Positions 3,340 to 53,751 of a DNA stretch of 64,000 bases are shown in pieces. The notes beneath the pieces are model-generated. The model was not told the origin of the DNA. It ran no database searches and saw only the letters and a program-made list of their open reading frames with translations. Origin of the DNA: Natrinema halophilum. GTDB lineage: Archaea > Halobacteriota > Halobacteria > Halobacteriales > Natrialbaceae. A program made the translations under genes and the position numbers. Every line of letters starts with the position of its first letter. The stretch's first letter is position 1. Location of the stretch: NCBI RefSeq assembly GCF_013402815.2, contig NZ_CP058601.1, positions 4,216,001-4,280,000 of the forward strand. The letters are read 5' to 3'.

Positions 3340-5883
3340 TCACATCGATCGCGCCGAGTTACAGACGACGAGCGCGCTACTCGCGGCCATCGCGACGGCA
3401 GCAAAGAGTGGATTCAGGAGACCGGCGACTGCGAGCGGAATCGCGACCGCGTTGTAAGCGAACGCCCAGCCGAGATTCTGTCGGATCCGCCTGTGGGCGC
3501 TCGAGGCGACGGCGAACGTCTCGGCGACGGCCTCCAAGTCGTCACCGACGATCACCGCGTCGGCCGCGTCGGTTGCGAGTTTCGTGCCGCCGCCCATCGC
3601 GATCCCGACGTCGGCAGCGGCCAGTGCAGGCGCGTCGTTGCTTCCATCACCAACCATCGCAACCGTCCCGCGGGCGCGAAGTCGGTCGACGGTCTCGGCT
3701 TTCGCCTCGGGCGGGACGCCGGCGAAGACCTCGTCGACGGCGTCGATCGCGCGGAACTGGTCGGCCGCCGGTCCCTCGTCGCCGGTGAGGACGACGATCT
3801 CACGACCGTCGGAGAGCGTCGAAAGTGCCGACTCCAGTTCCTCGCGCGGTTCGTCGCCGACGACGATAGTACCGCGGACCCGTCCCTTCCAGCCGACGGC
3901 GACGGGGACGTCGCCCGCCGCTCGAGCGTCGTCGATCGTCGACTCGAGGGAGTTCGGTATCGCCTGTCCCTGCTCGCGGAGGAAATCGGGGTGACCGACG
4001 AGGATGCGCTCGTCGTCGACGATTCCGCTCACCCCGCGGTCGGCCCGCTCGAACCTGTCGACGGTACTCGCGGCACCCTCGGTGGCGGAATCCGGTGCCG
4101 AGTCGGCGATAGCTGTCGCGATCGGATGGTCGGACAGGGCTTCGACTGCGCCGGCGCGGCGGAGCAAATCGTCGGCCGCCGAGTCGACGACCTGGGCGTC
4201 GTTGGCACCGGTGTCGTCGCCCGCGACGTGTAGCTCTTCGACGGTCATCCGTCCGGTCGTGAGCGTTCCCGTCTTGTCGAGGACGACGACGTCGACGTCC
4301 GGAGCGTCTTCGAATATCGTCTCCGCAGCGACAACGATTCCCCGTTGTGCAGCGTTCTGGACGCCTGCGGCGATCGCAAGCGGCGTTGCGAGTCCGAGCG
4401 CACACGGACAGGAGACGATCACGACCGTCAATCCGACCAGGAGAGCCGTCGACGCACTCGAGCCAGTTGCTAGCAGAACTGTGGCTGTTCCAACGGCGAG
4501 AACGACCACGAGCGGGACGAAGACGGTCGCGAGCTTGTCGGCGAGTCGCTGGACGCCGGGTCGGGCGCTCTGGATCGACCAGAGCAGGGAGACGAGCCGG
4601 TCGTGGGTGCTCTCTGCCTCGTCGCCGACCGCGAGGACGATCGGTGCATCGGTGACGACGGTCCCGCCGCGAACGTAATCGCCCGGCGCTTTTCTGACGG
4701 GGAGCGATTCACCGGTGACGAGCGACTCGTCGACCGCAGCACTTCCCGTTTCGACTTCGCCGTCGAGGGGAACTCGCTCGCCGGGGCGTACGAGCAGGTG
4801 GTCGCCTGGCTTGACGGCCTCGACCGGGACCGTCTCGCCGCTCTCGAGGCGTGCCTCGTCGACTTGCTGTTCGGTCAGCTCCGAGAGCAATCCGGTGGCG
4901 CGACGCTTGACTGACTTCTCGTAGGCGGTCCCTGCGGTGACGACGAGGACGATCGCGACGGTGACGTCGAAGTACAGGTGGCTTTGCCCGAGGACGATCG
5001 CGACGGTACTGTAGCTGTACGATCCCATTGCGGCCGTCGCGACCAGCAGGTCCATGTTCGGCCGTCGGGCCCGGAGGCTGACGTACGCACCGCGGAGGAT
5101 CGGATAGCCCGTATAAAAGAGGATAAACGACGTGAACACCCAGATGTTCGCCGCCAAAAAGCTGCTCTCGTAGCCGCCGAAGTCGGCGACGGGCTCGAGT
5201 CCGAAGTAGGTCGGGTACAGAAACAGGACGTACCACACCATGACCATCATTCCGAAGAAGCCACCGAGCAGGAGCGGCGCGAGTCCGTCGTCGGACTCCG
5301 CGGTACCGTCAGCGGCCGATCGATCGGCGGCGGTGTAGCCGTACCCGGAAACGATGTCCGGGAGGTCGTCGGCCGCGAGCCGATCGGAGTCGTAGACGAT
5401 TCGGATCGTATCCGTCGCGTAGCTGGCCGTCGCACCCAGAATGCCCGCTTCTCGCTCGGTGTTCGTCTCGAGAAACGCCTCGCACGTCGAACAGTGCATG
5501 CCGTCGACTGCGAGATAGGCATCCTCACCGTCGAGGTCGTCGAGGTCGGTGCCCTCGTCCGCCCGTGTCATCCGAGAGCGGAGTTCCGACTCGTCGGGTG
5601 CGTCGTCTGCTTGTTCCAGCGTCCGACTGACCTCGAGACAGCCCCGACAGCAAAACGTGCCGTCCACATCCGGCTCGGTGATCGGGTCCGGTGGCGTTGG
5701 CAGGTCACAGAGGTCACAGGTCTCGGTGTCGGGGTCGGGGTCGGGGTCGGCCGCCGGTACTCCCGCAGTGTCCGCTGTCGGTTCGGTTCCGGTCTCGGTG
5801 CCAGCCGACTGCCTCGCGTTCCGAGTGTCATCCTCCGATGACGATTCGTGCGGTCGCGCGGGTGGGTGTGATTCGTTGCTCAT
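3340..5883 (-). CDS. copper-translocating P1B-type ATPase (CopA/FixI-like)
   Basis: An 847-residue heavy-metal P-type ATPase. N-terminal metal sites are CDLC (56-59) with FCCRGC (77-82), the arrangement of FixI/CcoI ATPases, then an HMA domain with CSTC (131-134). The core has the membrane metal site SCPCALGLATP (CPC about 491-493), the phosphorylation motif DKTGTLTTG (Asp about 537) and GDGSNDAPALAAADVG near 746. CPC with N-terminal CxxC motifs fits Cu(I) transport. It is the last gene of a minus-strand run with the SafE-like gene (2-base gap) and a small membrane protein, divergent from the ba3 oxidase genes. This supports a role in copper supply to the oxidase (inference). The start ATG at 5883 is chosen by coupling; the frame extends upstream only as noise. 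Confidence 0.93.
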   Translation of the reverse strand: MSNESHPPARPHESSSEDDTRNARQSAGTETGTEPTADTAGVPAADPDPDPDTETCDLCDLPTPPDPITEPDVDGTFCCRGCLEVSRTLEQADDAPDESELRSRMTRADEGTDLDDLDGEDAYLAVDGMHCSTCEAFLETNTEREAGILGATASYATDTIRIVYDSDRLAADDLPDIVSGYGYTAADRSAADGTAESDDGLAPLLLGGFFGMMVMVWYVLFLYPTYFGLEPVADFGGYESSFLAANIWVFTSFILFYTGYPILRGAYVSLRARRPNMDLLVATAAMGSYSYSTVAIVLGQSHLYFDVTVAIVLVVTAGTAYEKSVKRRATGLLSELTEQQVDEARLESGETVPVEAVKPGDHLLVRPGERVPLDGEVETGSAAVDESLVTGESLPVRKAPGDYVRGGTVVTDAPIVLAVGDEAESTHDRLVSLLWSIQSARPGVQRLADKLATVFVPLVVVLAVGTATVLLATGSSASTALLVGLTVVIVSCPCALGLATPLAIAAGVQNAAQRGIVVAAETIFEDAPDVDVVVLDKTGTLTTGRMTVEELHVAGDDTGANDAQVVDSAADDLLRRAGAVEALSDHPIATAIADSAPDSATEGAASTVDRFERADRGVSGIVDDERILVGHPDFLREQGQAIPNSLESTIDDARAAGDVPVAVGWKGRVRGTIVVGDEPREELESALSTLSDGREIVVLTGDEGPAADQFRAIDAVDEVFAGVPPEAKAETVDRLRARGTVAMVGDGSNDAPALAAADVGIAMGGGTKLATDAADAVIVGDDLEAVAETFAVASSAHRRIRQNLGWAFAYNAVAIPLAVAGLLNPLFAAVAMAASSALVVCNSARSM

Positions 5884-6967: not shown

Positions 6968-7067
6968 GTTGTCTACTGAGCACGAGGGCTGCTTAATACT
7001 ACAACTTCTTCCCATCGAACGGGAACCAGGGTTGATGGTAAGTCGCGCCCATTCCCTACTCATCCGT

Positions 7068-8059: not shown

Positions 8060-9803
8060 CGCCTACATCGATCAGTTCCCCGACGAAGCGGCCGTGATCA
8101 AGGCGGCGTTCTGGAGTTCTTTTATCGCGCTGGCGATCGGTGGCACGCTCGGCCTCGTGCAGGCGCTTCACCGGACGGACGTCTTCCGGTTCATCCAGTC
8201 GCCCGATTACTACACCGTCCTCACCGCACACGGCGTATTGCTGGCGATCACGTTTACGATCTTCTTCCTCGTCGGCCTGTTCACCTGGGCGGTGACCACC
8301 GGCCTCGATCGCGGCGTCGTGGACATCCGCTTCACCTGGGCCTGGTACGCACTGATGGTAGTCGGTGCAACGCTGGAAACTGTGACGATATTCGCCGGCT
8401 TCCTCGAGCAAGCACCGACGGTGCTCGGCTCGGAGCTATACGCAGACGTGCTCTTTACGTTCTACGCACCGCTGCAGGCTCATCCCCTCTTCTACCTGGG
8501 TCTGGTGCTGTTCGTCGTCGGCTCCTGGCTCGCCGGCGTCGACTGGTTCCGGACCTGGTGGGCCTGGCGCAAAGAGAACCCCGACGAGCGAATACCGCTG
8601 CCGGCGTTCATGGTGTTGACGACGACGCTGTTCTGGTACATCTGTACGCTCGGCGTCGCGATAGCGATTCTCGTGTTCCTGCTGCCGTGGTCGCTTGGAA
8701 TCACTGACTCGGTGAACCCGCTGCTGACTCGGACCCTGTTCTGGTACTTCGGCCACGCCGTCGTCTACTTCTGGCTGATGCCGGCGTACGTGATGTGGTA
8801 TCTCATGCTGCCGAAGTTCTCCGGCGGAAAGCTGTTCAGCGATCCGCTCGCTCGCGTCGTTTTCGTGTTATTCCTGCTGCTCTCGACGCCGCTTGGCATC
8901 CACCACCAGTATCTGGATCCCGGCATCGCGGAAGGCTTCAAGTTCATCGCGATGACGAACACGATGTTCCTCCTGCTGCCGAGCCTGCTCACCGCCTTTA
9001 CTGTCGTCGCGAGTATGGAACACGGTGCTCGTCAGCGCGGCGGGACGGGCTATCTCGGGTGGCTCAAGGCCCTTCCGTGGCGCGACCCGGTCTTTACCGG
9101 GATGGCGCTCGCGGGCCTGATGTTCGCCGCGGCCGGATTCTCCGGCATGATCAACGCGGGGATGAACATCAACTACCTCGTCCACAACACCTGGTGGGTC
9201 GTCGGCCACTTCCACCTCACCGTCGGTACCGCCGTCGCGTTGACGTTCATGGCCTCGTCGTACTGGTTCATCCCGCAGATGACCGGCAAAGCGCTCTGGA
9301 ACCGCTCGCTCGCACTGGCCCAGGTCCTGATCTGGTTCGTCGGGATGACGTTCATGTCGAACGCGATGCACCGGTCCGGGCTGTTCGGCATGCCTCGCCG
9401 GACCGCCGAACCGCAGTACCAGGGCTTCGACTTCGAACCCGCCGTCGGCACCGTCGGCGAGATCAACGCACAGGTCGCCCTCGGGGCAGTGTTGCTGACC
9501 CTCTCGCTTGCCCTGTTCCTCCTGATCATGGTCATGACCTCGTTCAACGGCACTAGTGACTCGCTTCCGGACAACGGGTACGCCGGCACGCTCTCCGGGC
9601 CCGAGGACTCGCCCGCGATCCTCGACAACCTCAAGGTCTGGACCGCGATCGCCATCGTCCTCGTGATATTCGCGTACACGCTCCCACTTGCGAGCATCAT
9701 CGACTCCGGCGGCCTCTTCGGCAAGGGTATCGAGGGCGTCCAGCTCTCGATCGGCGCCGATCCCGGACTGGTCCTCGAGTCGCTCCGGGAGGTGATTCGG
9801 TAG
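8052..9803 (+). CDS. cbaA: cytochrome ba3 oxidase subunit I
   Basis: A 583-residue haem-copper oxidase catalytic subunit with 12 or more membrane helices. Key sites are the low-spin haem ligand in LTAHGVLLAI, the CuB histidine with cross-linked tyrosine in WYFGHAVVYFWLMP, the CuB pair HH in GIHHQYLD, and the two haem ligands HFH in WWVVGHFHLTVGTAVA. It reduces O2 to water and pumps protons across the cytoplasmic membrane. The GHAVVY pattern and the lack of a D-channel motif fit the B-type (ba3) group. Start ATG 8052 overlaps the end of subunit II, and the next gene begins immediately after its stop. Confidence 0.96.
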   Translation: MRNAYIDQFPDEAAVIKAAFWSSFIALAIGGTLGLVQALHRTDVFRFIQSPDYYTVLTAHGVLLAITFTIFFLVGLFTWAVTTGLDRGVVDIRFTWAWYALMVVGATLETVTIFAGFLEQAPTVLGSELYADVLFTFYAPLQAHPLFYLGLVLFVVGSWLAGVDWFRTWWAWRKENPDERIPLPAFMVLTTTLFWYICTLGVAIAILVFLLPWSLGITDSVNPLLTRTLFWYFGHAVVYFWLMPAYVMWYLMLPKFSGGKLFSDPLARVVFVLFLLLSTPLGIHHQYLDPGIAEGFKFIAMTNTMFLLLPSLLTAFTVVASMEHGARQRGGTGYLGWLKALPWRDPVFTGMALAGLMFAAAGFSGMINAGMNINYLVHNTWWVVGHFHLTVGTAVALTFMASSYWFIPQMTGKALWNRSLALAQVLIWFVGMTFMSNAMHRSGLFGMPRRTAEPQYQGFDFEPAVGTVGEINAQVALGAVLLTLSLALFLLIMVMTSFNGTSDSLPDNGYAGTLSGPEDSPAILDNLKVWTAIAIVLVIFAYTLPLASIIDSGGLFGKGIEGVQLSIGADPGLVLESLREVIR

Positions 9804-11489: not shown

Positions 11490-11593
11490 TGCGCCGTCGT
11501 TCGAGCGCCGGGCACATAGGTTCGTCGCCGGTGGAATACCGGCGACCGAGCGACGGCTATCCGACCGGCGCTTCTCTCGATCCGATGGCAACG

Positions 11594-35757: not shown

Positions 35758-35959
35758 GGCTACGCCATCGTTTCGCTGCATTGTATCGGAAGTTCCGTGG
35801 AATCGTTCTGATGTGTGCTGTCGATAATATCAAACGTACTGTAAACCGGTGTAATCCACTGCAGTATGTCGATTCCACACGGTCCGTATGGGAAATTTCG
35901 ATTCGACCGACCCGAACTTGTCGTTATGTGGTCATAAGTAATCTATTTAGAGTGGACGT

Positions 35960-36340
35960 ATGAGCGACGACCTCGAGCCGATCTCGCCGCGAGAGGCGGT
36001 CGACCTCTACATCTCGCACCGCGAACTCGAGGTGAGCGCGAAGATGCTGCAGAATCACAAGTACCGGCTCAACGTCTTCGTCGAGTGGTGTGACGAGGTC
36101 AGGATCGACAACTTGAACGACCTCACCGGTCGGTATCTCCACCGCTACCGAGTGTGGCGACAGCAAGACGTGAACATCGTCACGCTCCGCAGACAGCTCG
36201 CAACGCTGTGAGTGTTCCTCGAGTTCTGTGCATCCATCGACGCCGTCGAGCCTGGGATGCGCGAGCGGGTGAAATTGCCGGACGTCGACCGCGGTGACGA
36301 GGCTCGCGACGAGATGGTCGACACTGATCGGGCCCGAAAG
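35960..36340 (+). pseudogene. tyrosine recombinase, N-terminal fragment
   Basis: The frame starts with ATG 35960 and gives a SAM-like core-binding domain (EAVDLYISHRELEVSAKML and LNVFVEWCDEVRIDNLNDL). A TGA at 36209 interrupts it; the same frame then continues (VFLEFCASIDAVEPGMRERV). Similarity to integrases ends near 36335. The catalytic half is not found downstream, but a matching type of C-terminal half lies upstream at 35049. Confidence 0.75.
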
Positions 36341-36658
36341 AGCATCGTTCGGGAAACGAATCGAAAACCAACGAATGTGAAGACAGGTTTCGAAATAGAG
36401 ATTGCTAAAATAAAGTTGCGTTTGGAAAGTGAGTACGGGCTCCGATAGCCCGACCGGAGCCTCTGATTCGCCACCTCGAACGGTCGGTCCTGACCATCGG
36501 GGCGAACAGCCCGACTCCACCAGCATATTGCTGGCTCCCCAAATTCGGGGCGGTATCCCACCAAAGAGGTCGACTTCCCTAACCATACGCCCAGCCACCA
36601 CCCCGACCGTGCTTCGAGGGCCGTCGTCGCCCATCTCTATCGACTATTCTGGTTTGGA
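36341..36658. other. intergenic region
   Basis: No gene or clear repeat is seen in these 318 bases. Confidence 0.4.
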
Positions 36659-42655: not shown

Positions 42656-42672
42656 ATGGACTCGCCGGGATT
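42656..42672. repeat. attL, distal attachment repeat
   Basis: Exact copy of the tRNA-Ala 3'-end sequence, with imperfect similarity for about 15 more bases (tgaac and ccgggggcc with small insertions). The integrase start lies 56 bases to the right. Confidence 0.88.
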
Positions 42673-42727
42673 GTGAACGCCGGGGGCCAAACCCGAGTGT
42701 GCTGCGCAGTGAGCGGGCTGATCAGGC

Positions 42728-43744
42728 ATGACGGAAAACATCAGTCCCGCCGACGCAGTCGAACAGTACATCCAATCACGACACGACGCACTTGCGTCTA
42801 CTCAGGACAACCACCGGTATCGGCTCGACCACTTCCTCGTGTGGGCGGACGAGCACGGCGTGTCTCAGATGAGCGAACTCGACGGCTTCGATCTGGAGCG
42901 GTACAAGAACTGGCGAATGAGCGAGGAGTCACCATCAGACTGCAACCTCGTTACGCTGGAACAACACCTGCACACGCTTCGGGTGTTCATCCGATGGTGC
43001 GAATCTGCCGACATCGTGACGGAAGGGCTCTCCGACAAGGTGCTGATTCCCAACGTCTCATCATCCGAAAAAAGCCGAGACAAGGCGATCTCTCACGAAC
43101 GTGCCCAAGACATCATCGACTACCTCTCGACGTATCATTTTGCTTCGACCATGCACCTGTCCTTCCACGTCTCATACCACGCAGGGTGTAGAAGGTCGGG
43201 GCTCCACAGTCTTGATGTTCAAGACTGGCACTCGGACGAGCGATTCCTGTCGTTCCGGAATCGTCCCGAGGAGGGAACGCGACTGAAACTCGGTGACGAA
43301 GGAGAACGGAACGTCACTGTCTCAGACGACACGCTGGCCCGAGCGTTGGATGCGTACGTCGAGGAACGTCGTCCCGATGTAACCGATGAACACGGACGGG
43401 AGCCGTTGTTAGCATCGAATCAGGGGCGTCACCACTACCAGACGATCAACAAGCACGTCTACAAGGTGACGAGGCCGTGTATCGTCGGTGCAGAGTGTCC
43501 ACACGACCGGGAACCTGAGGAGTGCGAAGCAACTCAGTATTCAGGATACTCGAAGTGTCCGTCTTCGGTGTCGAGTCACCCCATCAGACGGTCCGCGATC
43601 ACTCATCACCTGTCCGAAGATGTGCCGAAGGAGATCGTTTCGGAGCGGATGTCCGTAAGCACCGACGTCCTCGATCTGCACTACGACGCTCGGACGAAGG
43701 AGGAGAAGCGACAGAACCGAGCCAAGTATCTGGACGAGGTATAG
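42728..43744 (+). CDS. tyrosine recombinase (XerC/D-like integrase)
   Basis: A 338-residue integrase. The N-terminal SAM-like core-binding domain (residues about 5-100) precedes the catalytic domain. Visible active residues are Arg in YHAGCRRSGLHSL (about 155), H-x-x-R in SSHPIRRSAITHH (about 284-287) and Tyr in LDLHYDARTKEE (about 319). It should catalyse recombination between the tRNA-Ala-derived repeats. It lies next to attL. The two integrase relics near 35-36 kb are of the same general type. Confidence 0.92.
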   Translation: MTENISPADAVEQYIQSRHDALASTQDNHRYRLDHFLVWADEHGVSQMSELDGFDLERYKNWRMSEESPSDCNLVTLEQHLHTLRVFIRWCESADIVTEGLSDKVLIPNVSSSEKSRDKAISHERAQDIIDYLSTYHFASTMHLSFHVSYHAGCRRSGLHSLDVQDWHSDERFLSFRNRPEEGTRLKLGDEGERNVTVSDDTLARALDAYVEERRPDVTDEHGREPLLASNQGRHHYQTINKHVYKVTRPCIVGAECPHDREPEECEATQYSGYSKCPSSVSSHPIRRSAITHHLSEDVPKEIVSERMSVSTDVLDLHYDARTKEEKRQNRAKYLDEV

Positions 43745-43789
43745 CCCCGGCGTTCATTTTCGATTAACAACGAGAGAACACGCGGTTCT

Positions 43790-44368
43790 TCACACTTCCC
43801 GATCCTCCTTGAGTGTGAAGTTCACCAAATCGTATGGGGTGACGATACCGAGGAACTCCCCCTCGTCCTCCACCAGCATTGCCCTGTATTCACCGTTCAG
43901 GTGCTCCTGAATCGTCTCGACGTCGAGATAGGGTGGAACAGTAGTGAACCCTTCGCGGTGTACTAACGGTCGGATAGGCGAGTCGCTGTCCTCTCCGGCC
44001 AATCTCTCAGTAGTGATCCAACCGATGTGGTCACCTTCTTCCCTCACTGGGAACTGGGTGTATGCCATTTCCATCGCCCGTTTACCTACTTCCCCGACTG
44101 TCTCATCCGGGTATACCCATTCGATTTCAGGCACCATGACTTCCTCAGCGGTCACTGTGTCTTCGGCTTCTTGTTTGAGTACCTTCCACATCCGATAGAT
44201 TTTCTCGTAACTCGCCTCGCGCTCGCCGTTTAGACTCCGACTGACGTGCGAGGGATCTATGCTTGTCTTTTCTGCCAGTTGCTTCTGAGTGAGTCCCTGT
44301 TCATCGAGCAGGCTACGCAGTTGATCGATCACTCGTTCGTACTCGTGAAGTATGATGCTTCCCGGCAT
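43790..44368 (-). CDS. XRE-type HTH regulator with two CBS domains
   Basis: A 192-residue protein. Residues 10-60 form a helix-turn-helix (QGLTQKQLAEKTSIDPSHVS). Two CBS domains follow (VMVPEIEWVYPDETVGEV and TTVPPYLDVETIQEH, ending LGIVTPYDLVNF). CBS pairs bind adenine nucleotides, so the element may sense cell energy state or AMP-type signals. It is divergent from the replication operon, sharing a 70-base control region, and so may repress replication and itself (inference). Confidence 0.88.
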   Translation of the reverse strand: MPGSIILHEYERVIDQLRSLLDEQGLTQKQLAEKTSIDPSHVSRSLNGEREASYEKIYRMWKVLKQEAEDTVTAEEVMVPEIEWVYPDETVGEVGKRAMEMAYTQFPVREEGDHIGWITTERLAGEDSDSPIRPLVHREGFTTVPPYLDVETIQEHLNGEYRAMLVEDEGEFLGIVTPYDLVNFTLKEDREV

Positions 44369-44438
44369 GATTGACTCTAAGGCAATTTCTTGCTGAAATC
44401 ATTTACCTTCCGGCAATCTGTAGTCCAAAACGGTGATC
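44369..44438. promoter_or_regulatory. divergent control region of the element
   Basis: Between the regulator (minus) and the replication operon (plus). The hexamer ggcaat occurs twice in direct orientation at 44381 and 44412. The first copy is part of a short inverted repeat, gcaa-tttc-ttgc (44382-44393). It is a plausible binding site for the HTH-CBS protein. Confidence 0.45.
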
Positions 44439-45035
44439 ATGAGTACGCAAAACCACACTTCGGCAGACGAAGGACCGTTCACAGACGAATGGCGACAGGC
44501 GTTCAGTACGACGGAAGATCATGCCTCACGGAAACGGCAGGGCAGGCTCGAAACAGACAAAGGAGAATGGGACTTCGTGCCCGCTTTTCCTGCTATGAGT
44601 CCGGCAAGAACTACGTTTCATGTCGTTGACCTCGATGACATAGATGAGGAGGATGAGAGACGCTGGAACCGTCTGTGGTGTCTACAACACAACCGTGGGC
44701 ACACGTGGGACGAGAATGCGAAGACGACTGTTCGGACTGAGGCGACATACCGCCGTTGCGCGACGATACTACAGCAGTGTGAGGTTCCAGGCCGCAGTGA
44801 GAACGTAGCCACCTCTCGTGTGATCAGCGAGGATCTGACTGGCTTCAGTCGGCACTATGCTGGTGCTGATGGGGCATGTATCGGCTTCGCCCTGCTCGAA
44901 CTGTATGAAACTCCAGATGAGGCGCGAGACTCGCTCTTCGCAGAACGAGCATCCGATGTGATACCCGGTCTGGACTCCGACGGTGTAGATGGGTTGGTTG
45001 ACTACGTGTTCCGGAAGTACGGGGGTACTTCGTGA
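44439..45035 (+). CDS. unknown acidic protein, first gene of the replication operon
   Basis: A 198-residue protein with no motif I can name with confidence. A charged N-terminal part (TDEWRQAFSTTEDHASRKRQ) is followed by FVPAFP and the block WNRLWCLQHNRGHTWDEN, then a helical C-terminus. The block recalls a haloarchaeal family that databases sometimes label RNA polymerase epsilon subunit; I cannot verify this. Its TGA is overlapped by the primase ATG (TGATG), so the two are translated together. GTG 44433 is an alternative start. Confidence 0.65.
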   Translation: MSTQNHTSADEGPFTDEWRQAFSTTEDHASRKRQGRLETDKGEWDFVPAFPAMSPARTTFHVVDLDDIDEEDERRWNRLWCLQHNRGHTWDENAKTTVRTEATYRRCATILQQCEVPGRSENVATSRVISEDLTGFSRHYAGADGACIGFALLELYETPDEARDSLFAERASDVIPGLDSDGVDGLVDYVFRKYGGTS

Positions 45036-46003
45036 TGTCAGAAACGACCGACCCGCAGGGACAACACAGTTGGTGGTGTTCGATCCCCGAGCCCCTTCGC
45101 ACCCGGTCGCAGTGGGTCGTGACTCGGGACAAGAAGCCGATAAAGCCGGAAACCGGATGGAACGACTCTGGCAATCAGTTCTCGTTCCAACATGCACGAC
45201 GTCTCGCAGAGGAGTATGGTGGTGAACCTGCCTACACACTGCATGCCGATGACCCATACGTCGTGATCGACTTGGACGACGTCGGACCGGACGAACCGAC
45301 GAAGGTATCCGAAGAAGTCGGTGAAATCGTACAACCCCTCGGTACTTACACCGAGGCAAGCCGGTCAGGGACAGGGCTACATCTGGTCTGTGAAGGAACA
45401 CAGTTGCCCGACCGATCTGTGAAGGGGAACCTATCTGATCGAGGCACTATCGAGGTGTACGATGTGGGCCAGTATGTCATACTGACAGGCAATCAGATCG
45501 GGCCCTACGACACGGTCAGAGACGGTCATCGAGCCAGAGATGACGTCGATGACGTGCTGAGTGATCTCCAGCGGGAGTACCTACCGACACGGTCAGGTTC
45601 AGTCAAGACAGTGACGGAGCAGTCACAGTTCGATTTAACGTCGGTTTCGCGTGACTCTGTCAGTGTCCGAGTCGAAGATGTCCGTCGGACTCTGGAGGAG
45701 TATGCGAAGGACAACCATCCGGATGCACAACGCACACTGGATCGGTGGGACTCACTTGCTGGCTCCGACTGCGGATTCCCCTCGGCATCGGAGGCAGACA
45801 TCGCACTGGTAGCAGATCTCGCATTCTGGTGTCGGGAAGATGCGCAGTTGATCGACGACTGTTTCCGCGCTTCGAACCGGATGCGAGAGAAGTGGGATGA
45901 GGCCCACTACGCCGACGGACGGACGTACGGGGACGGAACCATCCAGACAGCAGTCCGGACGAACTACGATACGTTCTCGTGCCACTACGTCCAGCACCGA
46001 TGA
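45035..46003 (+). CDS. primase-polymerase (archaeo-eukaryotic primase family)
   Basis: A 322-residue AEP-type protein. The catalytic DxD is in YVVIDLDDV (D79, D81). The second motif is ASRSGTGLHLVCE (SGTGLH, 111-116), and the third is IEVYDVGQYVILTGNQ (139-154). A helical C-terminal part (LVADLAFWCREDAQLIDDCF) matches the accessory domain of NrS-1-type primase-polymerases. The protein should initiate or carry out replication of the element. The usual fused helicase is missing, so a host helicase such as MCM is presumably used. The last base of its stop region overlaps the next gene (ATGA). Confidence 0.85.
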   Translation: MSETTDPQGQHSWWCSIPEPLRTRSQWVVTRDKKPIKPETGWNDSGNQFSFQHARRLAEEYGGEPAYTLHADDPYVVIDLDDVGPDEPTKVSEEVGEIVQPLGTYTEASRSGTGLHLVCEGTQLPDRSVKGNLSDRGTIEVYDVGQYVILTGNQIGPYDTVRDGHRARDDVDDVLSDLQREYLPTRSGSVKTVTEQSQFDLTSVSRDSVSVRVEDVRRTLEEYAKDNHPDAQRTLDRWDSLAGSDCGFPSASEADIALVADLAFWCREDAQLIDDCFRASNRMREKWDEAHYADGRTYGDGTIQTAVRTNYDTFSCHYVQHR

Positions 46004-46203
46004 CTTGGGTATACTCACCGCCGAGGGTCGAAGTGGTCGAGTACAGCATCTACTCGAACGGCGATCCGGAGTCTGCAACGGTGAAAACGAAGACGGTGGA
46101 GACGGAACAAGCGAAACTGGCCGACTTCATCGATGGCGATACCGAGTCAGAGGTGTACATCCCACCCTGCTTAAAAAAGCCGTCAGATTCGGAGTCCGAG
46201 TAG
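46000..46203 (+). CDS. small acidic protein coupled to the primase gene
   Basis: A 67-residue protein starting in ATGA overlap with the primase stop. It reads as a small beta-rich domain (VEVVEYSIYSNGDPES) and an acidic end (KKPSDSESE). The conserved overlap suggests a partner or a copy-control protein. No family is recognised. Confidence 0.6.
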   Translation: MTWVYSPPRVEVVEYSIYSNGDPESATVKTKTVETEQAKLADFIDGDTESEVYIPPCLKKPSDSESE

Positions 46204-46513
46204 TAGGAAAACGCCGTATCAGGCCCTCTACTGTCCGAACCACGATGTGTATACTTGATAACTGGAAGGCCCCGTGGGGGACCCACCGGAACGCCTCAAT
46301 CCGGCCCGAACCGAAGGCGGGTGTGTGGCGGAACAGGTCGGTTCGGTCCGAGTCCAACTACTTGAAGAACAATAAGAACGGATTCATTTCAACCCCACCC
46401 GTGTTGTCTCGCTGAATGGTCGGTCCTGATGTCTCGCTTTTTCATCAGTCACTCCGGGGTGTAATGCATCTTAAACATCAGCTATTTCTGCATGTGATTC
46501 AGTATCAGAGTCC
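46204..46513. other. intergenic region inside the element
   Basis: No gene is recognised. atcttaaac near 46469 is a TATA-like box for the next gene. Confidence 0.4.
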
Positions 46514-47875
46514 ATGAGCAGCGAAAGCGGGTCTGAGTGGCCTTCTGAATTAGTGAATAAACTCCACTCAGATGTTGATGATGACGAAATAATTCAGTTC
46601 ATCGAGGACGTCGTACCTGATGATGAGGCACATATTTTCGACAATAAGAGAGAAGCGTATGTGTCCGCCTCAGACGATGATAAGACGGAAAAACGGCGGG
46701 CAGGATTGGCGAAGAGTTTCGCCGGTCTCGCAAACGTTCATCACCGGTCCGCCCACAGATTCATGTTTGTGGGTTTTGATGACGCTGCACAATTCCAAGG
46801 AATCCAATATTTAGGGGCAGAAGGAGGTGATCACGTCTACGACGTTGATGATCAGGAAATACAGAACATACTTAGAGACCACCTTGAGCCCCCGCCCTCA
46901 GTCGAAAAACACCGTCTTGAGGCCGATGATGATCGAGGGTTGGTTTTCGTAATAGAACGTGCTACTTCACCACCGATAGTGATCACAGAGACGGTGAATG
47001 CCGAAGGAGACCGGATTACGACTCAAGGGATTGCCCCAACCAGACGGAGTTCGGAAACTACGCATATGCGTCATTCCGACTTTCGTGATATCGTTGAACA
47101 CCGTGAAGAGGTACTCACGGATGTTCTGGAACATTGGGTGGACGATTTGGGGAGAGTGGTGGGAGCACCAGCAGAGGATATCGAAGAACACGAGTTTTCG
47201 ATAACATCCGACCCGAACGCTCCCGCAGTCCGGAACGTAGTGGTTCCTCAAGAAGCAAGGGATTTGAATGAAGATCTGAGTGCCAAAGCGATTAGTTGGT
47301 TAACTGACGACGATCTTCCCGGATCAGTAGAAGTCATGTATAAATTCTACAATAGGAGAGACCTGATTGACGGAACAGAGGATGAATACTATCAAAATCA
47401 GATGGACTTTCTGTTCAATGCATCTCTGGCTCACTATTTGCCGGGTGCTGAATGGTTATCGACGTTCGATGGTGATTGGGATGATCTATTCTCACAAGTG
47501 ATTAATACCGATTATAATCACTGGTCGATTCTGATGTTAGAGAAGATTCTCTTTGTCTTAGGATGGAATGAAATGCTTCAGGATATTGCTGACAATGAGG
47601 GCTTCAACTACCGCGATAGCGAGGCCGAAACCTACGCCGATATGTGCGAATTGCCGACCTTGGAACGGATAGAGGAGTGCATAGGAACGCGGATCTATTT
47701 CGATGGTGACTCATATTCCGTGTCTGACTTGTACTCAGATGAGGAGGCGCTGGAAGACTTGTTTGATGAAGTTGCAGAACACTGCCATACGAACGAGCCC
47801 GAGAAAGGTGCGCTGAGAAGCATCGAACTCATTCGATTGTCGAAAGTAGGTAGCGACCGTCTTTATAGTGGCTAA
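46514..47875 (+). CDS. AlbA_2/Schlafen-like domain protein (tentative)
   Basis: A 453-residue acidic protein. Residues about 30-135 (NKREAYVSASDDDKTEKRRA, KSFAGLANVHHRSAHRFMFVGFDD) follow the plan of AlbA_2 / divergent AAA_4 (Schlafen) domains, which have a charged beta strand, an AxxNxxG-like turn and a VGxDD strand; here the turn is altered (NVHHRS). The C-terminal 250 residues are helical and unrecognised. AlbA_2 proteins often occur with defence genes. Low-GC codons match the following methyltransferase gene. Transcribed alone, about 325 bases before that gene. Confidence 0.55.
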   Translation: MSSESGSEWPSELVNKLHSDVDDDEIIQFIEDVVPDDEAHIFDNKREAYVSASDDDKTEKRRAGLAKSFAGLANVHHRSAHRFMFVGFDDAAQFQGIQYLGAEGGDHVYDVDDQEIQNILRDHLEPPPSVEKHRLEADDDRGLVFVIERATSPPIVITETVNAEGDRITTQGIAPTRRSSETTHMRHSDFRDIVEHREEVLTDVLEHWVDDLGRVVGAPAEDIEEHEFSITSDPNAPAVRNVVVPQEARDLNEDLSAKAISWLTDDDLPGSVEVMYKFYNRRDLIDGTEDEYYQNQMDFLFNASLAHYLPGAEWLSTFDGDWDDLFSQVINTDYNHWSILMLEKILFVLGWNEMLQDIADNEGFNYRDSEAETYADMCELPTLERIEECIGTRIYFDGDSYSVSDLYSDEEALEDLFDEVAEHCHTNEPEKGALRSIELIRLSKVGSDRLYSG

Positions 47876-48200
47876 GTGTTCTTCATAATCAGCCTGATCC
47901 GTGTATCCCCGAGGCTGGTTAGAATTGGCAGAAGTGAACAAATTAGAGGTTAGAGGCCCAGAATCCGGCGTATTATCTTTCCATGGGATTGCTTGCGAGA
48001 TACACTTCTGAGACGAATTCATCGGAGACTCGCTGCTTCACGGTCTAATTTCGTAACCAGAGAGAGAGAGGGTTTTGCTGTTCAAACAACCACGAATTTT
48101 CTCGCAACACCCGTCTTGTGCTTCCGAGTTGGTGGAGTCTGCTGTATAAAAAACGGTCACTTTGATTAGGCCATGACAAGAAGGACTGGCTATCTCACGA
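47876..48200. other. intergenic region before the methyltransferase
   Basis: AT-rich with no gene. gtataaaaaac (48143-48153) is a strong TATA box that predicts a short leader before ATG 48201. Confidence 0.5.
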
Positions 48201-51200
48201 ATGTCTATGGAAGGGACCCAAACCGAATTCGACTTTTCTGAGTTCGAGACAGAAGTTACGGAAGCCGACGAAAACCGGATCATCGAGACAATTGCGGACA
48301 GCATCGGGCGACTACGAGATCAAATTGATGACGACTTTCTCCACGGGATGTTTCAGCATGAGTCTGGCCGGTATATTTTAAAATCACAACATACAACGGA
48401 TCAACTTGATCCGGAACCTCTGACGAAGAGCCGAGTGATCGAACCACTCCTCGATACGCTCGGATACAATGACTATGGATATGAAGCCGGAAGTTTTGCT
48501 GAAGAAAGGGGTGAACAAGCCGACTACGCAGTTTCTCTTCGAGACATCGTTACCGTAGATTCAACCCGATTATTGATTGAAGCAGAGCCAGTCAACAAAC
48601 CTCTACAAGACCGCGGTCACGGGCTTGATCAAGTCGAGAGTTGGCTGAGTCAGCGAGAGTTCGAGTCTGATTTCGGATTTGCGACTGATGGTGTTAGGTG
48701 GATATTCGTCCGGTACGATCCCGATTCATACACTCACAACATCATCGGTGAAGTAGATCTTCGTCCTGTTTTCCTCACTCTTTTCGAGAACGCTACCGCG
48801 GTCAACCCGGACGCACCCACATCTGTTGTACCCGAGGATCAGCGAGAACTCATTTCGACTCTACTCCGCACCTTCAACTACGAGAACTTCGTTTCGATTA
48901 TTGGCGATGCGTCAACAGTTCTCAGTGAGAAGAAGGAAGCAATCACACAGGAGTTCTACGACGACTATATCCAGATTGTATTCGGGGTTTCAGAAGAAGA
49001 CGAGGAGCGACGTGCTCGAAGCCTTATAGGGGAAGGCGGTATCGAATCGCCGGAAGAAGCAAATGGGGATGACGTCCGACTGTTCGCCGTCGAGTTGATG
49101 AACCGGTTGATTTTCGTCAAGTTCCTCGAAGACAAGCGCATTGTGCGACCAGACTTGCTCGACACGTTGGTAGAAACCTACGAGCAAGGTATCTATCCCC
49201 AGTCGTTCTACAAAACCTTCCTTGACCCCCTGTTCTATGACGTCTTCAATGAGAAGCCCGAACGTGACCCGCAAATCAAAGACATCGATGTATTCTCCGA
49301 TATTCCTTACCTCAACGGTGGACTATTCCGGCCAGAACTGAATGGTTCCTCTACAATAAACGAGCGAGACTTTGACGTGAGTGATAGCGTTCTCGAATCA
49401 ATTATTGACTTACTCGAACGGTATCGCTTTTCCGCTGATGGTGGTCCAACTGACATCGATCCAAGTGTACTGGGAAGTGTCTTCGAGAAAACAATAAACT
49501 ATTTGACAACTGAATCGGGGGACCAGAACAAGGAACTCGGAGCATATTACACTCCGAGTGAAATCACGCGGTTCTGTGCCGAGGAAACTGTTCGGCCTGC
49601 CCTTTTAGAACGGTTCAAAACCGTGCTCGCTGAGGAGAGAGACTGGCCCGAAGCCGAACTTCAGCAGTACGATACTCTCTATGGATTGATTGACGGAGTA
49701 CCGGGTTCAGGAGATCTTATAACTTCGCTACTTTCCGAAATTGACGAGTTCTACATTATTGACCCGAGTATGGGGAGCGGGCACTTCCTGACGTCTGTGG
49801 TGGAGGAGATCGTGACTGTCCGGCAGTCACTCTACGCACGGCAAGAGCAGGAGGACTATCCGAGCCGTCATCGGCTCAAGAAGACGACTATTCAGAACAA
49901 TATCTACGGCGTGGACATCATGGAACCGGCGGTTGAGATCGGAAAACTTCGGCTCTGGCTGTCAATAATTTCAGAACTCCATGAGGATGATGTAGAAAAT
50001 CTGGATATGGAAGATATTGCTCTGCCAAATATTGGTTTTAACATTCAGAAAGGGAATAGTCTAATTGGTTATGTAGATTTTCCTGAACAGACCACTGATG
50101 GAGATCAAACCTTTGAGAATTGGAATAAAAATAGTGTCAGGGACCGTTATGAAGAGATCATTGAACAAATTAATCTCTACGAGGAAAGCGTTGCCTTCCC
50201 AGAAAAAGCCGAACAACACCGTCAGAAAGCAAAACAGCTGAAAAAGAAGCACAGAGAGACGCTGAACCGCGATTTTCTTGATATATTTCAGGAGGCCGTT
50301 GAAGACGCAACGGAGGAAGATCTTGCCGGTCAAGATCCTTTCCACTGGATGCTTGAATTCCCAGAGGTGTACGCACGGGGTGGATTTGATGTTATAGTTG
50401 GGAATCCGCCTTGGGATATGCTTCAACCGCGTCGAGACGAATTTTTCTGCCGATATGAACCCGAGTTCCGGTCATTCACTCCCGATAAAAAAGACGAGGT
50501 CCAAGAGAAGTTATTAGAAAATCATAATCTCCGGGAAAAGTGGGAAGAGTACAAACAAAACTTCCAGATGAGGTCCTCATTTTTTACTGATGGGACCGAC
50601 TACTCGCTGCAATGGGGTGAGATAGGTGGAAGGACCCGGACTGGCCGTAACGACCTATCCATGTTGTTCTTGGAGCGTGTATTCGAGCTGGCAGACACGG
50701 AGGGATACGTAACGCAAGTACTTCCCGGAAAGATATTCAGTAATGGTTCCTGTAAGAATTTGCGACTTCATCTTCTTAACGAAACCTCACTAAAATCGGT
50801 TGTTGGCTTCGAAAACAAGGGTATATTTGCAGGCATCCATGCTCAGCAAATGTTCGGAATACTCACTTTCAAGAATTCCGGAAGTACAGAGAATTTTTCG
50901 GCTATATTCCATCAACGAGACACTGGTATCCTACGAGAATTTGAGGAACATGGATTTGATATGTCTCGTGACATTATGGAAAAGTATTCGCCGGAAGGCA
51001 TTACCTTTCCTTCTGTCCGGTCAGCGACAGAGGTCAGAGCCTTAGACGATATACTTGAACATCCGCCAATTTCACAAGAAAATTGTGACAAATGGTATGC
51101 TGATGGACATATAGAAATATATACGAGAGATTCGGACTATTTCTCTGAAGAAAAAGAAAAGGCCGATTATCCGGTCATCGGTGGGAGCAATATGTATCAA

Positions 51201-52058
51201 TTCTCTCATGATAATAGGTTTTTTGAGGATCTTGAAGAGCCGAAGTACTGGAGTGTGGAAGAAGATGCAAATCCGAGCAAGAGTGCAAAACGGCGAGTCA
51301 GAGAGAAGAATACATCACATCTAAAAAATGCCATTTATTCAGAATTTGGCGGAGAGAATACAAATAAGAGCAAGAAGGCGTTTGTGAACGATTTGTTAAA
51401 AAAGAAACGGGGAGAAGCACTACAAGCAGAGGATGTGAAACTTGACTGCACCGAATATCGTATCGTATTCCGGAATGTTACAAAATCTACAAATGAACGT
51501 ACATTTGTTGCCTCAGTCATTCCTCCGGGGATTATCTGTTATCACGCTCTGACGACCATCCGTCCCTATCAAATCAACCCGTCTAAAGAGGACCTAACCC
51601 GATCTCCACTGCATGACGTCTATGAGCGTATCTTCACCGATGAAGAGTTGTTTGCCGTACTTGGCCTGTTGAATAGTATCCCGTATGACTTTCTTATGAG
51701 AACGAAAGTAGAAACGAATATTTCAAGGTATAAATTTGAGGAATCTACTGTCCCCCGACTGTCTGAAGGAGACGAGTGGTTCGAATACATTTGGAAGCGG
51801 GCTGCCCGTCTTAATTGCTATGGCGAGGAGTTCGAGACAATGCGGGACCGCCTCGGTGGAATTGAACCAGCGACTAACTCAGACAAACGGGGAGAGATTC
51901 AGTCAGAACTTGATGCTGTGTCCTTCCATGCATATGGGCTGACTCGAGAGAAGACTGAGTTCATTTTGAGTGATTTTCATCGTGTACGGACCCCTCGTCA
52001 GATGACTGATGATTACTTTGATATGGTTTTGGAAAAGTACGATGAACTCAATGATTAG
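48201..52058 (+). CDS. Eco57I-type (type IIG) restriction-modification methyltransferase, nuclease motif altered
   Basis: A 1285-residue protein. The N-terminal nuclease-like domain shows PLLDTLGY, then D108 in QADYAV and LLIEAEPVNKPL; the usual E-x-K reads E127-A-E129, so the key lysine is replaced by glutamate. The methyltransferase core has LGAYYTPSEITRF (about 448), the AdoMet motif DPSMGSGHFLTS (about 521) and catalytic NPPW (about 734), as in N6-adenine enzymes. A TaqI/Eco57I-like C-terminal specificity region follows (INPSKEDLTRSPLHDVYERI). It should methylate DNA, and cutting may need another protein. The convergent PD-(D/E)XK gene 31 bases away is the natural candidate. BREX PglX is an alternative, but no other BREX gene is near. 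Confidence 0.88.
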   Translation: MSMEGTQTEFDFSEFETEVTEADENRIIETIADSIGRLRDQIDDDFLHGMFQHESGRYILKSQHTTDQLDPEPLTKSRVIEPLLDTLGYNDYGYEAGSFAEERGEQADYAVSLRDIVTVDSTRLLIEAEPVNKPLQDRGHGLDQVESWLSQREFESDFGFATDGVRWIFVRYDPDSYTHNIIGEVDLRPVFLTLFENATAVNPDAPTSVVPEDQRELISTLLRTFNYENFVSIIGDASTVLSEKKEAITQEFYDDYIQIVFGVSEEDEERRARSLIGEGGIESPEEANGDDVRLFAVELMNRLIFVKFLEDKRIVRPDLLDTLVETYEQGIYPQSFYKTFLDPLFYDVFNEKPERDPQIKDIDVFSDIPYLNGGLFRPELNGSSTINERDFDVSDSVLESIIDLLERYRFSADGGPTDIDPSVLGSVFEKTINYLTTESGDQNKELGAYYTPSEITRFCAEETVRPALLERFKTVLAEERDWPEAELQQYDTLYGLIDGVPGSGDLITSLLSEIDEFYIIDPSMGSGHFLTSVVEEIVTVRQSLYARQEQEDYPSRHRLKKTTIQNNIYGVDIMEPAVEIGKLRLWLSIISELHEDDVENLDMEDIALPNIGFNIQKGNSLIGYVDFPEQTTDGDQTFENWNKNSVRDRYEEIIEQINLYEESVAFPEKAEQHRQKAKQLKKKHRETLNRDFLDIFQEAVEDATEEDLAGQDPFHWMLEFPEVYARGGFDVIVGNPPWDMLQPRRDEFFCRYEPEFRSFTPDKKDEVQEKLLENHNLREKWEEYKQNFQMRSSFFTDGTDYSLQWGEIGGRTRTGRNDLSMLFLERVFELADTEGYVTQVLPGKIFSNGSCKNLRLHLLNETSLKSVVGFENKGIFAGIHAQQMFGILTFKNSGSTENFSAIFHQRDTGILREFEEHGFDMSRDIMEKYSPEGITFPSVRSATEVRALDDILEHPPISQENCDKWYADGHIEIYTRDSDYFSEEKEKADYPVIGGSNMYQFSHDNRFFEDLEEPKYWSVEEDANPSKSAKRRVREKNTSHLKNAIYSEFGGENTNKSKKAFVNDLLKKKRGEALQAEDVKLDCTEYRIVFRNVTKSTNERTFVASVIPPGIICYHALTTIRPYQINPSKEDLTRSPLHDVYERIFTDEELFAVLGLLNSIPYDFLMRTKVETNISRYKFEESTVPRLSEGDEWFEYIWKRAARLNCYGEEFETMRDRLGGIEPATNSDKRGEIQSELDAVSFHAYGLTREKTEFILSDFHRVRTPRQMTDDYFDMVLEKYDELND

Positions 52059-52088
52059 ACACTGTTAGGTGTTATTCTGCCAATATTC

Positions 52089-53249
52089 TTATAGAATATC
52101 ATCAGTCGTTTCTGCTTGCTTGAATCGACCCAACTCGGTGTAGCGTAGTGAGTAGGGCACCCGGCTTTCGTAGTCTATCGGATTTTCTAACTCGTATAAG
52201 GTCCCTGGCTCAAACACCACTACCTGCTTGTTTTCATCGAACTCTGCTTGATCACCTACATAGGACTCCAGCGTGCGAGCGAGAGTGGCTTCCGTGGAAG
52301 GAACGATCTCTTTCACGCGGGCCACGTACCGCACCTGCTGAACATCATCAGAGATGTACATCGCCACGTACTCCGGTTGCTGGTCGATATGAACGAACCC
52401 CCAAGCATTGTTCTCTTTCAGGAACTCGACGCCGGACGTCTGTGATGGAAACACCGCTACCGTCGTATCATCTTCACCTTCGAGTTCGTCCCGAGATATG
52501 GGTCCTTGTACAGCGTTTCCACCGGTCTGTGGACCGTCCCATTCCGTTGTGGTTGTACCTCCTCCACCTGTGGGACCGCCATCTCCACCGCTGTCGTCCT
52601 CACGGAACTCGATGACGTCTTGAATTAACCCAACCAGTTGCCCAACGTCAACTGCGTTGATGGGCAGCAGGACATCGACTACCTGATCATGCCGTAGCCC
52701 CGAGTCCTCCTGAATTGCGAGTAGGTCCAGAAGTCGCTGTGCGGTTATGACTCGCATCCGATCCCGGTATTGAGAACCGAAAACAGTCTGTGCGACTGTC
52801 TCGACGTCTCCCTCACCAATTACGTATAGTCCGTAGACTTGCGACCGATCAACGTCTTCCTCCCTCGTGAGTTCGACCATGTAATCGCCAGCCTGTCCAG
52901 GATCGATTGAATAGGCCGTCGTCTTCTTCGTCTCCACGACGAGGTGGGTGTCGTCTTCAGTCGCCGTCGAGATCCAGTGGCCGTCGTATCCGATAGTATT
53001 GTTTCGGCCCTGATAGACGCCATATTCCACCTCAAACCCGAGACGTCGTCCGATGTTGTTGACAAGATCCTGCAAGGCACGATTATGGTACTGATCGGTA
53101 CCTTCCATTGCTTCAAGCAGGTAAGCCTCAATCTCCTCGGTCGTTGTCTGTTCGTCCCCGATTATTTCCCGGAACTGCTCACTCGCACGAGAATCGTCGT
53201 TCCAATCGCCTGCGAGGCTGACAATCCGATCCAGTGTAAGTTCGACCAT
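52089..53249 (-). CDS. stand-alone PD-(D/E)XK nuclease-like protein
   Basis: A 386-residue protein. Helical residues 1-75 include YHNRALQDLVNNIGRRLGFE. A PD-(D/E)XK core follows: GYDGHWIS (D89) and THLVVETKKT (E106, K108). A Gly/Thr-rich linker (residues about 255-285) joins a C-terminal alpha-beta domain. It resembles restriction-type proteins coded beside methyltransferases. A TATA box (catatatg, 53274-53281) about 27 bases upstream supports a leaderless ATG at 53249 rather than starts further upstream. It is convergent with the type IIG-like gene. Confidence 0.8.
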   Translation of the reverse strand: MVELTLDRIVSLAGDWNDDSRASEQFREIIGDEQTTTEEIEAYLLEAMEGTDQYHNRALQDLVNNIGRRLGFEVEYGVYQGRNNTIGYDGHWISTATEDDTHLVVETKKTTAYSIDPGQAGDYMVELTREEDVDRSQVYGLYVIGEGDVETVAQTVFGSQYRDRMRVITAQRLLDLLAIQEDSGLRHDQVVDVLLPINAVDVGQLVGLIQDVIEFREDDSGGDGGPTGGGGTTTTEWDGPQTGGNAVQGPISRDELEGEDDTTVAVFPSQTSGVEFLKENNAWGFVHIDQQPEYVAMYISDDVQQVRYVARVKEIVPSTEATLARTLESYVGDQAEFDENKQVVVFEPGTLYELENPIDYESRVPYSLRYTELGRFKQAETTDDIL

Positions 53250-53678
53250 TTGAGCACCGATTCTCAGGACACTCATATATGTCTGGTTCCGCGATCTTTC
53301 CCTCAACTGTGTTTTCTGGCGTGTATTCCGGGCACACTCAGAGTCTTTGCGTCTAACCACGGCAGGGGCGCGGACGACTCGGAGGTTGTGAGAGATAGCT
53401 GTCGCCCGCACAACGAGAAACGCTTGTTCGTTGTCAGTGTATTTTCGAGGTGCGCATGGCAGTGTGTTCCCTACTGATTGGCTGCCACGAAAATGCTGTT
53501 ATCGGGCAGTACAAGGACTGATACGCCGGGAAAAGGTTTTAGTGGCTACCATTCACATTTAGACTTGTCCGCTCACACTCGCAGTCCGCTTCGGGCCCAC
53601 TCACACTGGACGGACGACAAGGGCGATATAGAACAAATCGGCTTGCCGTCTGTCGATTCCTACCCGAGTGGGAAAATC
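53250..53678. other. right end of the element
   Basis: Apart from the nuclease promoter, no gene is recognised before the attR repeat. Confidence 0.45.
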
Positions 53679-53695
53679 ATGGACTCGCCGGGATT
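53679..53695. repeat. attR, attachment repeat at tRNA-Ala
   Basis: Same 17 bases as at 42656. It covers the acceptor 3' strand and part of the T arm of tRNA-Ala, so integration restores a complete tRNA. Confidence 0.88.
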
Positions 53696-53751
53696 TGAAC
53701 CCGGGGCCTCTCCCATGCCAAGGGAGTGATCTACCTCTGATCTACGAGCCC
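53680..53751 (-). tRNA. tRNA-Ala (anticodon GGC)
   Basis: A 72-base cloverleaf on the minus strand. The acceptor GGGCTCG pairs with CGAGTCC, including the G3-U70 wobble that marks tRNA-Ala. The anticodon stem CTCCC/GGGAG encloses TTGGCAT (anticodon GGC), and the T arm is CCGGGTTCAAATCCCGG. The discriminator is A. Confidence 0.95.

Follow-up and report, generated by a model that had tools for sequence, protein, structure and literature searches.

The question raised by this locus is what kind of element occupies the 11 kb between two copies of a tRNA end in Natrinema halophilum, and by which means it would move, replicate and persist. We analysed a window of 64,000 nucleotides, the whole stretch of DNA to which positions refer unless another locus is named, taken from a host genome of 4.84 Mb, and compared it with related loci in haloarchaea. 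We consider it very probable that the locus is an integrative, non-conjugative plasmid-like element of 11,023 bp with a PrimPol, that is, a 'cryptic integrated element' of archaea whose cargo is of restriction type. The original prediction of a minimal plasmid-like integrative element is well supported by the att repeats, the SNJ2-type integrase, the PrimPol, the lack of matches to structural and transfer genes, the recurrence of the design as a family and the empty site of a sibling.

Ends of the element, integrase and tRNA target

The repeat ATGGACTCGCCGGGATT is present as an exact 17-bp pair at 42656-42672 and 53679-53695, with a distance of 11,023 bp between the copies and no third copy in the window. 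The proximal att copy (53679-53695) lies within the 3' end of an intact tRNA-Ala(GGC) on the reverse strand (53680-53751; tRNA prediction and Rfam tRNA model, 67.3 bits), which is the integration target, and the distal copy (42656-42672) corresponds to a partial tRNA-Ala 3' end, exact over 17 bp and followed by an imperfect likeness on to ~42688; neither copy is assigned a strand. When gaps are allowed the tRNA likeness of this left copy reaches ~33 bp, the stretch reading GTGAACGCCGGGGGCC versus TGAACCCGGGGCC, as is expected if the attP of the element carried a diverged tRNA segment. The 11-kb element with exact 17-bp ends at a tRNA-Ala, as originally described, is confirmed by the repeat pair and the intact tRNA gene.

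By chance, ~1e-5 occurrences of an exact 17-mer are expected per window (2 x 64000 / 4^17), and 0.00 of the 23-base pattern of the tRNA end when three mismatches at most are allowed. The reading of the repeat as a chance or structural likeness, with the region being ordinary chromosomal DNA, can appeal to the short length of the repeat and to nothing else; it is hardly conceivable, since the 64 kb hold only two copies, which stop at the tRNA boundary beside an integrase gene, and it is already contradicted by siblings which share the design, one of them with an empty site.

The integrase gene (42728-43744, forward strand) adjoins the partial att copy and lies far from the tRNA. Its product of 338 aa is a tyrosine integrase (phrog_1, E 2e-21) in which the catalytic positions R, K, HxxR and HY(D) can be recognised by eye, and it shares 42.5% identity across 99% of its length with the integrase of Natrinema virus SNJ2, which places it within the SNJ2 type as defined by an identity of 30% or more across 60% of the protein (PMC8371274). 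The adjoining, divergent gene (43790-44368, reverse strand) encodes an XRE helix-turn-helix (HTH_3, E 2.6e-9) with two CBS domains (E 6.9e-14), likely a repressor or control protein, which would hold the element quiet. Integrated elements of Thaumarchaeota often encode proteins with CBS domains (PMC6563490).

We propose that the SNJ2-type integrase would recombine a tRNA-like attP with the 3' end of tRNA-Ala, an event which would rebuild the tRNA at one end and leave the 17-bp copy at the other, in keeping with the anatomy observed. Excision by the integrase would then yield a circle whose junction would read ...GGGAAAATCA-TGGACTCGCCGGGATT-GTGAACGCC... The right end of the element and the integrase each have one identical copy in the host assembly, and therefore no free form is visible there.

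The p200-PrimPol operon

The original prediction also placed an integrase, a replication operon and cargo between the repeats, and all of these are recovered by ORF calls and profile scans. The operon lies on the forward strand and starts with p200 (44433-45035, 200 aa), the marker of the family, whose gene overlaps that of the PrimPol (45032-46003); a small ORF over the PrimPol stop (46000-46203, forward strand) had no homologue in the siblings. The PrimPol is NrS-1-like (PF22763, E 1.9e-22; phrog_1829, E 1.3e-47), its profile matches the solved NrS-1 primase structures with an E value of 2.6e-43, the AEP motifs D-x-D and S-x-H and the helix-bundle domain are all present, and D80, D82 and H117 are invariant across nine siblings. 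It thus resembles the PrimPol of phage NrS-1 (PDB 6a9w, 7rr3) in the D, D and H motifs of the AEP core and in the helix-bundle domain; however, it ends past the latter, lacking the C-terminal helicase of the full-length NrS-1 primase, and has a separate upstream partner in p200. The absence of this helicase leads us to file the protein as an AEP-plus-helix-bundle relative and not as a full NrS-1-type primase-helicase, and for the same reason autonomous replication of the element stays a proposal.

The N-terminal third of p200 is variable and appears disordered in the structural model (mean pLDDT 63), the helical part being of good confidence from residue 94 onward. For residues 91-200 the top matches of a second-look aligner were archaeal TFB (Z 9.0), TFIIB, cyclins and Orc6, helical matches under Z 13 being of a kind which may arise by chance or from a common arrangement. 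Foldseek with the p200 model gave no match at E < 0.8, a Pfam search with the p200 members gave no sequence support for a likeness to TFIIB, cyclins or Orc6, and the alignment of the p200 profile to the TFB repeats of the host itself with hhalign was not significant (~2% probability, E 0.02; reversed control, E 0.48). The resemblance of the modelled C-terminal half to the TFIIB/cyclin/Orc6 fold is taken here as a tentative lead. Orc6 is a subunit of origin recognition and belongs with TFB and the cyclins to one fold family, which makes an initiator role for p200 attractive. In the Pfam search family Herpes_UL52 came up weakly for one of nine p200 members (E 0.0037, below the cut-off) and was not accepted.

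In the mechanism that we propose, the excised circle would replicate via the p200-PrimPol operon, with p200 recognising the origin or recruiting the primase, the PrimPol making the primer, and the helicase and polymerase being supplied by the host. A more ambitious version, in which these loci constitute a distinct haloarchaeal integrative plasmid family with a minimum of ~4.5 kb, whose TFB/Orc6-like, cyclin-fold p200 finds the origin and hands over to the helicase-less PrimPol, is worth stating and yet rather doubtful; if true, p200 and its PrimPol would represent a replication-initiation module made from a transcription-factor fold.

A family of related elements in haloarchaea

The p200-PrimPol pair was found at no fewer than 14 haloarchaeal loci, with p200 directly upstream of the PrimPol in 14 of the 14 checked, and p200 itself is uncommon, with hits in 13 of the 392 haloarchaeal genomes sampled, three of them very weak. 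A tyrosine integrase, intact, broken or of another type and usually SNJ2-type, lies near 13 of the loci; none was found in the stretch read at the Halorubrum cibi locus. Some siblings have no clear ends, and at several loci repeats of 15-40 bp are found at the ends of tRNA-Phe, -Tyr, -Arg, -Lys or -Met, delimiting elements of 4.5-15.5 kb. The smallest siblings consist essentially of the integrase, the p200-PrimPol pair and one or two small genes. In order of size, the delimited members measure 4,533 bp in Halosegnis rubeus (G327; tRNA-Tyr, 29-bp repeat), 5,106 bp in G118 (tRNA-Phe, 22 bp), 5,163 bp in Halovenus rubra (G243; tRNA-Phe, 20 bp with one mismatch), 7.1 kb in G336 (36-bp exact repeat at 8480-8515 and 15540-15575 of L131, broken integrase), 9.0 kb in Natrinema limicola (G016; tRNA-Met, 40 bp, with a tyrosine integrase overlapping the tRNA), 14.2 kb in G349 (tRNA-Arg, 19 bp) and 15.5 kb in G007 (tRNA-Lys, 23 bp at 91%). 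The member in G349 combines att sites, integrase and p200-PrimPol with the same methyltransferase as the element studied here (64%), and its left flank looks accessory. In G336 the target would be a protein gene and not a tRNA, as the repeats read by eye like the first part of a gene for a dinB-like polymerase. The sibling in G007 holds a predicted tRNA-Arg of odd length (L091, 2601-2698), which could belong to the cargo or be mispredicted.

Direct evidence of movement comes from the smallest member. When the flanks of the G327 element were joined in silico, its congener G268 aligned unbroken across the junction over 953 columns with 91.5% identity, and at the occupied locus the alignment of the same joined stretch is interrupted, stopping at 7015 and resuming at 11516. 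G268, a sister species of the host of this sibling, has the exact empty site; thus, the G327 member has moved and its ends are exactly those predicted. The nearest relative of the Natrinema halophilum integrase (55%) is found in G027, beside a 16-bp partial copy of tRNA-Ala(CGC) and 11.4 kb from that tRNA, at a locus with other cargo and no recognised PrimPol, and consequently the integrase and the replication module appear to be exchanged separately.

Among the eight ORFs of the element there is no match to capsid, relaxase, coupling protein, type IV secretion or conjugation families (Pfam, PHROGs, NCBIfam), nor to the spike and membrane virion proteins of pleolipoviruses (Pfam, PHROGs), and the predicted lack of structural and transfer genes is borne out by these scans. 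The element has a SNJ2-family integrase in common with the temperate pleolipoviruses (classification of Badel et al. 2021, PMC8371274) and differs from them in its lack of virion genes and in its replication module. One could imagine a provirus remnant, a SNJ2-like pleolipovirus stripped of virion genes, or a satellite that such a virus would package, considering that SNJ2 and other pleolipoviruses have integrases of the same family and that unidentified ORFs adjoin the p200-PrimPol pair in Natrinema limicola. This is nevertheless quite improbable, given that no gene has a PHROG or Pfam structural family, that p200 is absent from the viral contigs and phage records searched, that the relatives of the PrimPol in viral contigs are distant only (29-31% identity), and that the smallest siblings have so limited a gene content. 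The joined attP of the element gave no match in viral contigs.

The preferred reading, a plasmid-like integrative element, can be compared with the thaumarchaeal cryptic integrated elements, most of them <20 kb, with varied replication genes including primpols, restriction-modification cargo and no signature genes (Krupovic et al. 2019, PMC6563490). Like these, the element is small and has an integrase, direct-repeat att borders, restriction-type cargo and no recognisable virion or conjugation genes; unlike them, it resides in a haloarchaeal host and has an SNJ2-type integrase, a core PrimPol without helicase and the signature partner p200. The literature searched, whose coverage is incomplete, contained no description of a p200-PrimPol family; an earlier mention in surveys of haloarchaeal integrases is possible, and the 2018 paper on the SNJ2 integrase reportedly made such a survey. 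The single copy in Natrinema halophilum is of less interest than its family, a small and well-delimited group of integrative replicons in archaea which is marked by a signature gene, has precise ends and includes one member whose empty site is found in nature. Helicase-less PrimPols on such small replicons offer a test of how little archaeal plasmid replication needs.

Cargo genes and the surroundings of the tRNA

We propose that the last 7 kb, with a type IIG-like enzyme, an AlbA_2 protein and a PD-(D/E)XK-like protein, would be exchangeable cargo which, judging from family membership, most likely guards the host and the element against other mobile DNA. The drop in GC announced for the interior of the element is found in the cargo (0.476 in the AlbA_2 gene and 0.461 in the methyltransferase gene) and does not extend to the integrase (0.567) and p200-PrimPol (0.568), which match the flanks (0.543 and 0.568); with the drop confined to the cargo and the core like the flanks, the element is a mosaic.

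The type IIG-like restriction/N6-adenine methyltransferase (48201-52058, forward strand, 1285 aa; Eco57I, E 1.1e-26; REase_MTase_IIG, E 8e-38) is similar to the Eco57I/MmeI-like enzymes in size, in domain order and in its intact methyltransferase motifs, DPxxGSGHFL (DPSMGSGHFL) and NPPW. It departs from them in the nuclease motif (48525-48600, ADYAV...LLIEAEPVNK), where D is followed by E-A-E instead of the usual E-x-K. The E-A-E is invariant in the seven homologues aligned, and this conservation may reflect either an active site of variant form or a role other than that of a nuclease. Besides the G349 element (64%), relatives are found at the p200 locus of Halorubrum cibi (57%), at an integrase locus in G036 (57%) and also on plasmids, and the same methyltransferase on different members shows that restriction-type genes move among haloarchaea.

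The protein of 453 aa encoded at 46514-47875 (forward strand) has an AlbA_2 (Schlafen-type) domain with a score just over the cut-off (PF04326, E 1.1e-5); its homologues, 29-34% identical, occur in nine of 392 haloarchaeal genomes, some of them weak, and one such relative sits, by eye, in a gene cluster that also encodes helicase-like proteins and a large protein resembling methyltransferases. The PD-(D/E)XK-like protein (52089-53249, reverse strand), with the motif D..VETK, carries a C-terminal module common to HsdR_N-type haloarchaeal proteins and is possibly a modified-base reader. Its start had been placed at 53411 and is corrected here to 53249, because the homologues begin with MVELTLDR. 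The in-frame stretch upstream of it (53304-53411) is 78% identical over 36 residues to a stretch of another haloarchaeal genome, G360, no gene being recognised there. For this protein, a profile built with its homologues gave chance matches only against solved structures, and a single-sequence AlphaFold model was unusable (pLDDT 33). The label of defence island is supported in part: the type IIG-like protein, with E-x-E in place of E-x-K, matches defence models, and neither the AlbA_2 nor the PD-(D/E)XK protein has a confident match among them.

The surroundings of the tRNA bear on whether the element is still mobile. A decayed, immobile genomic island, an integration relic kept for its useful restriction-type cargo, would fit the distal copy with just 17 exact bp, the single copy in the assembly and another broken integrase in the neighbouring DNA; we regard it as unlikely, because the integrase, p200, the PrimPol and the cargo are full-length open frames with conserved motifs and the two copies do not differ in the att core. 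The own empty site of the plasmid-like element was not found among the congeners examined (species representatives) and could not be shown, because none of them has DNA syntenic with that to the left of 42656. The tRNA-Ala(GGC) and its right-hand neighbourhood are found in congeners, and the DNA 3' of the tRNA differs in the 12 regions compared. In ten congeners (G002, G003, G004, G005, G006, G011, G014, G020, G022 and G025) an integrase ends ~120 bp away from the tRNA 3' end, and this constant distance points to an integrase resident for a long time or to a site used repeatedly. The tRNA-Ala(GGC) site is an integration hot spot.

To the left of the element, the window at 35959-36347 has 88% DNA identity to the start of the G020 integrase that abuts tRNA-Ala(GGC), and by this similarity it appears to be the remains of an older integration. 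The other tRNA-Ala of the host (CGC) holds another integrase-bearing element (3047-9770 of L007, G000:C1:1917000-1936000), in which an ORF at 3561-5216 was read by eye as a possible primase and whose distal end carries two tandem partial tRNA copies, at 9638 and 9770.
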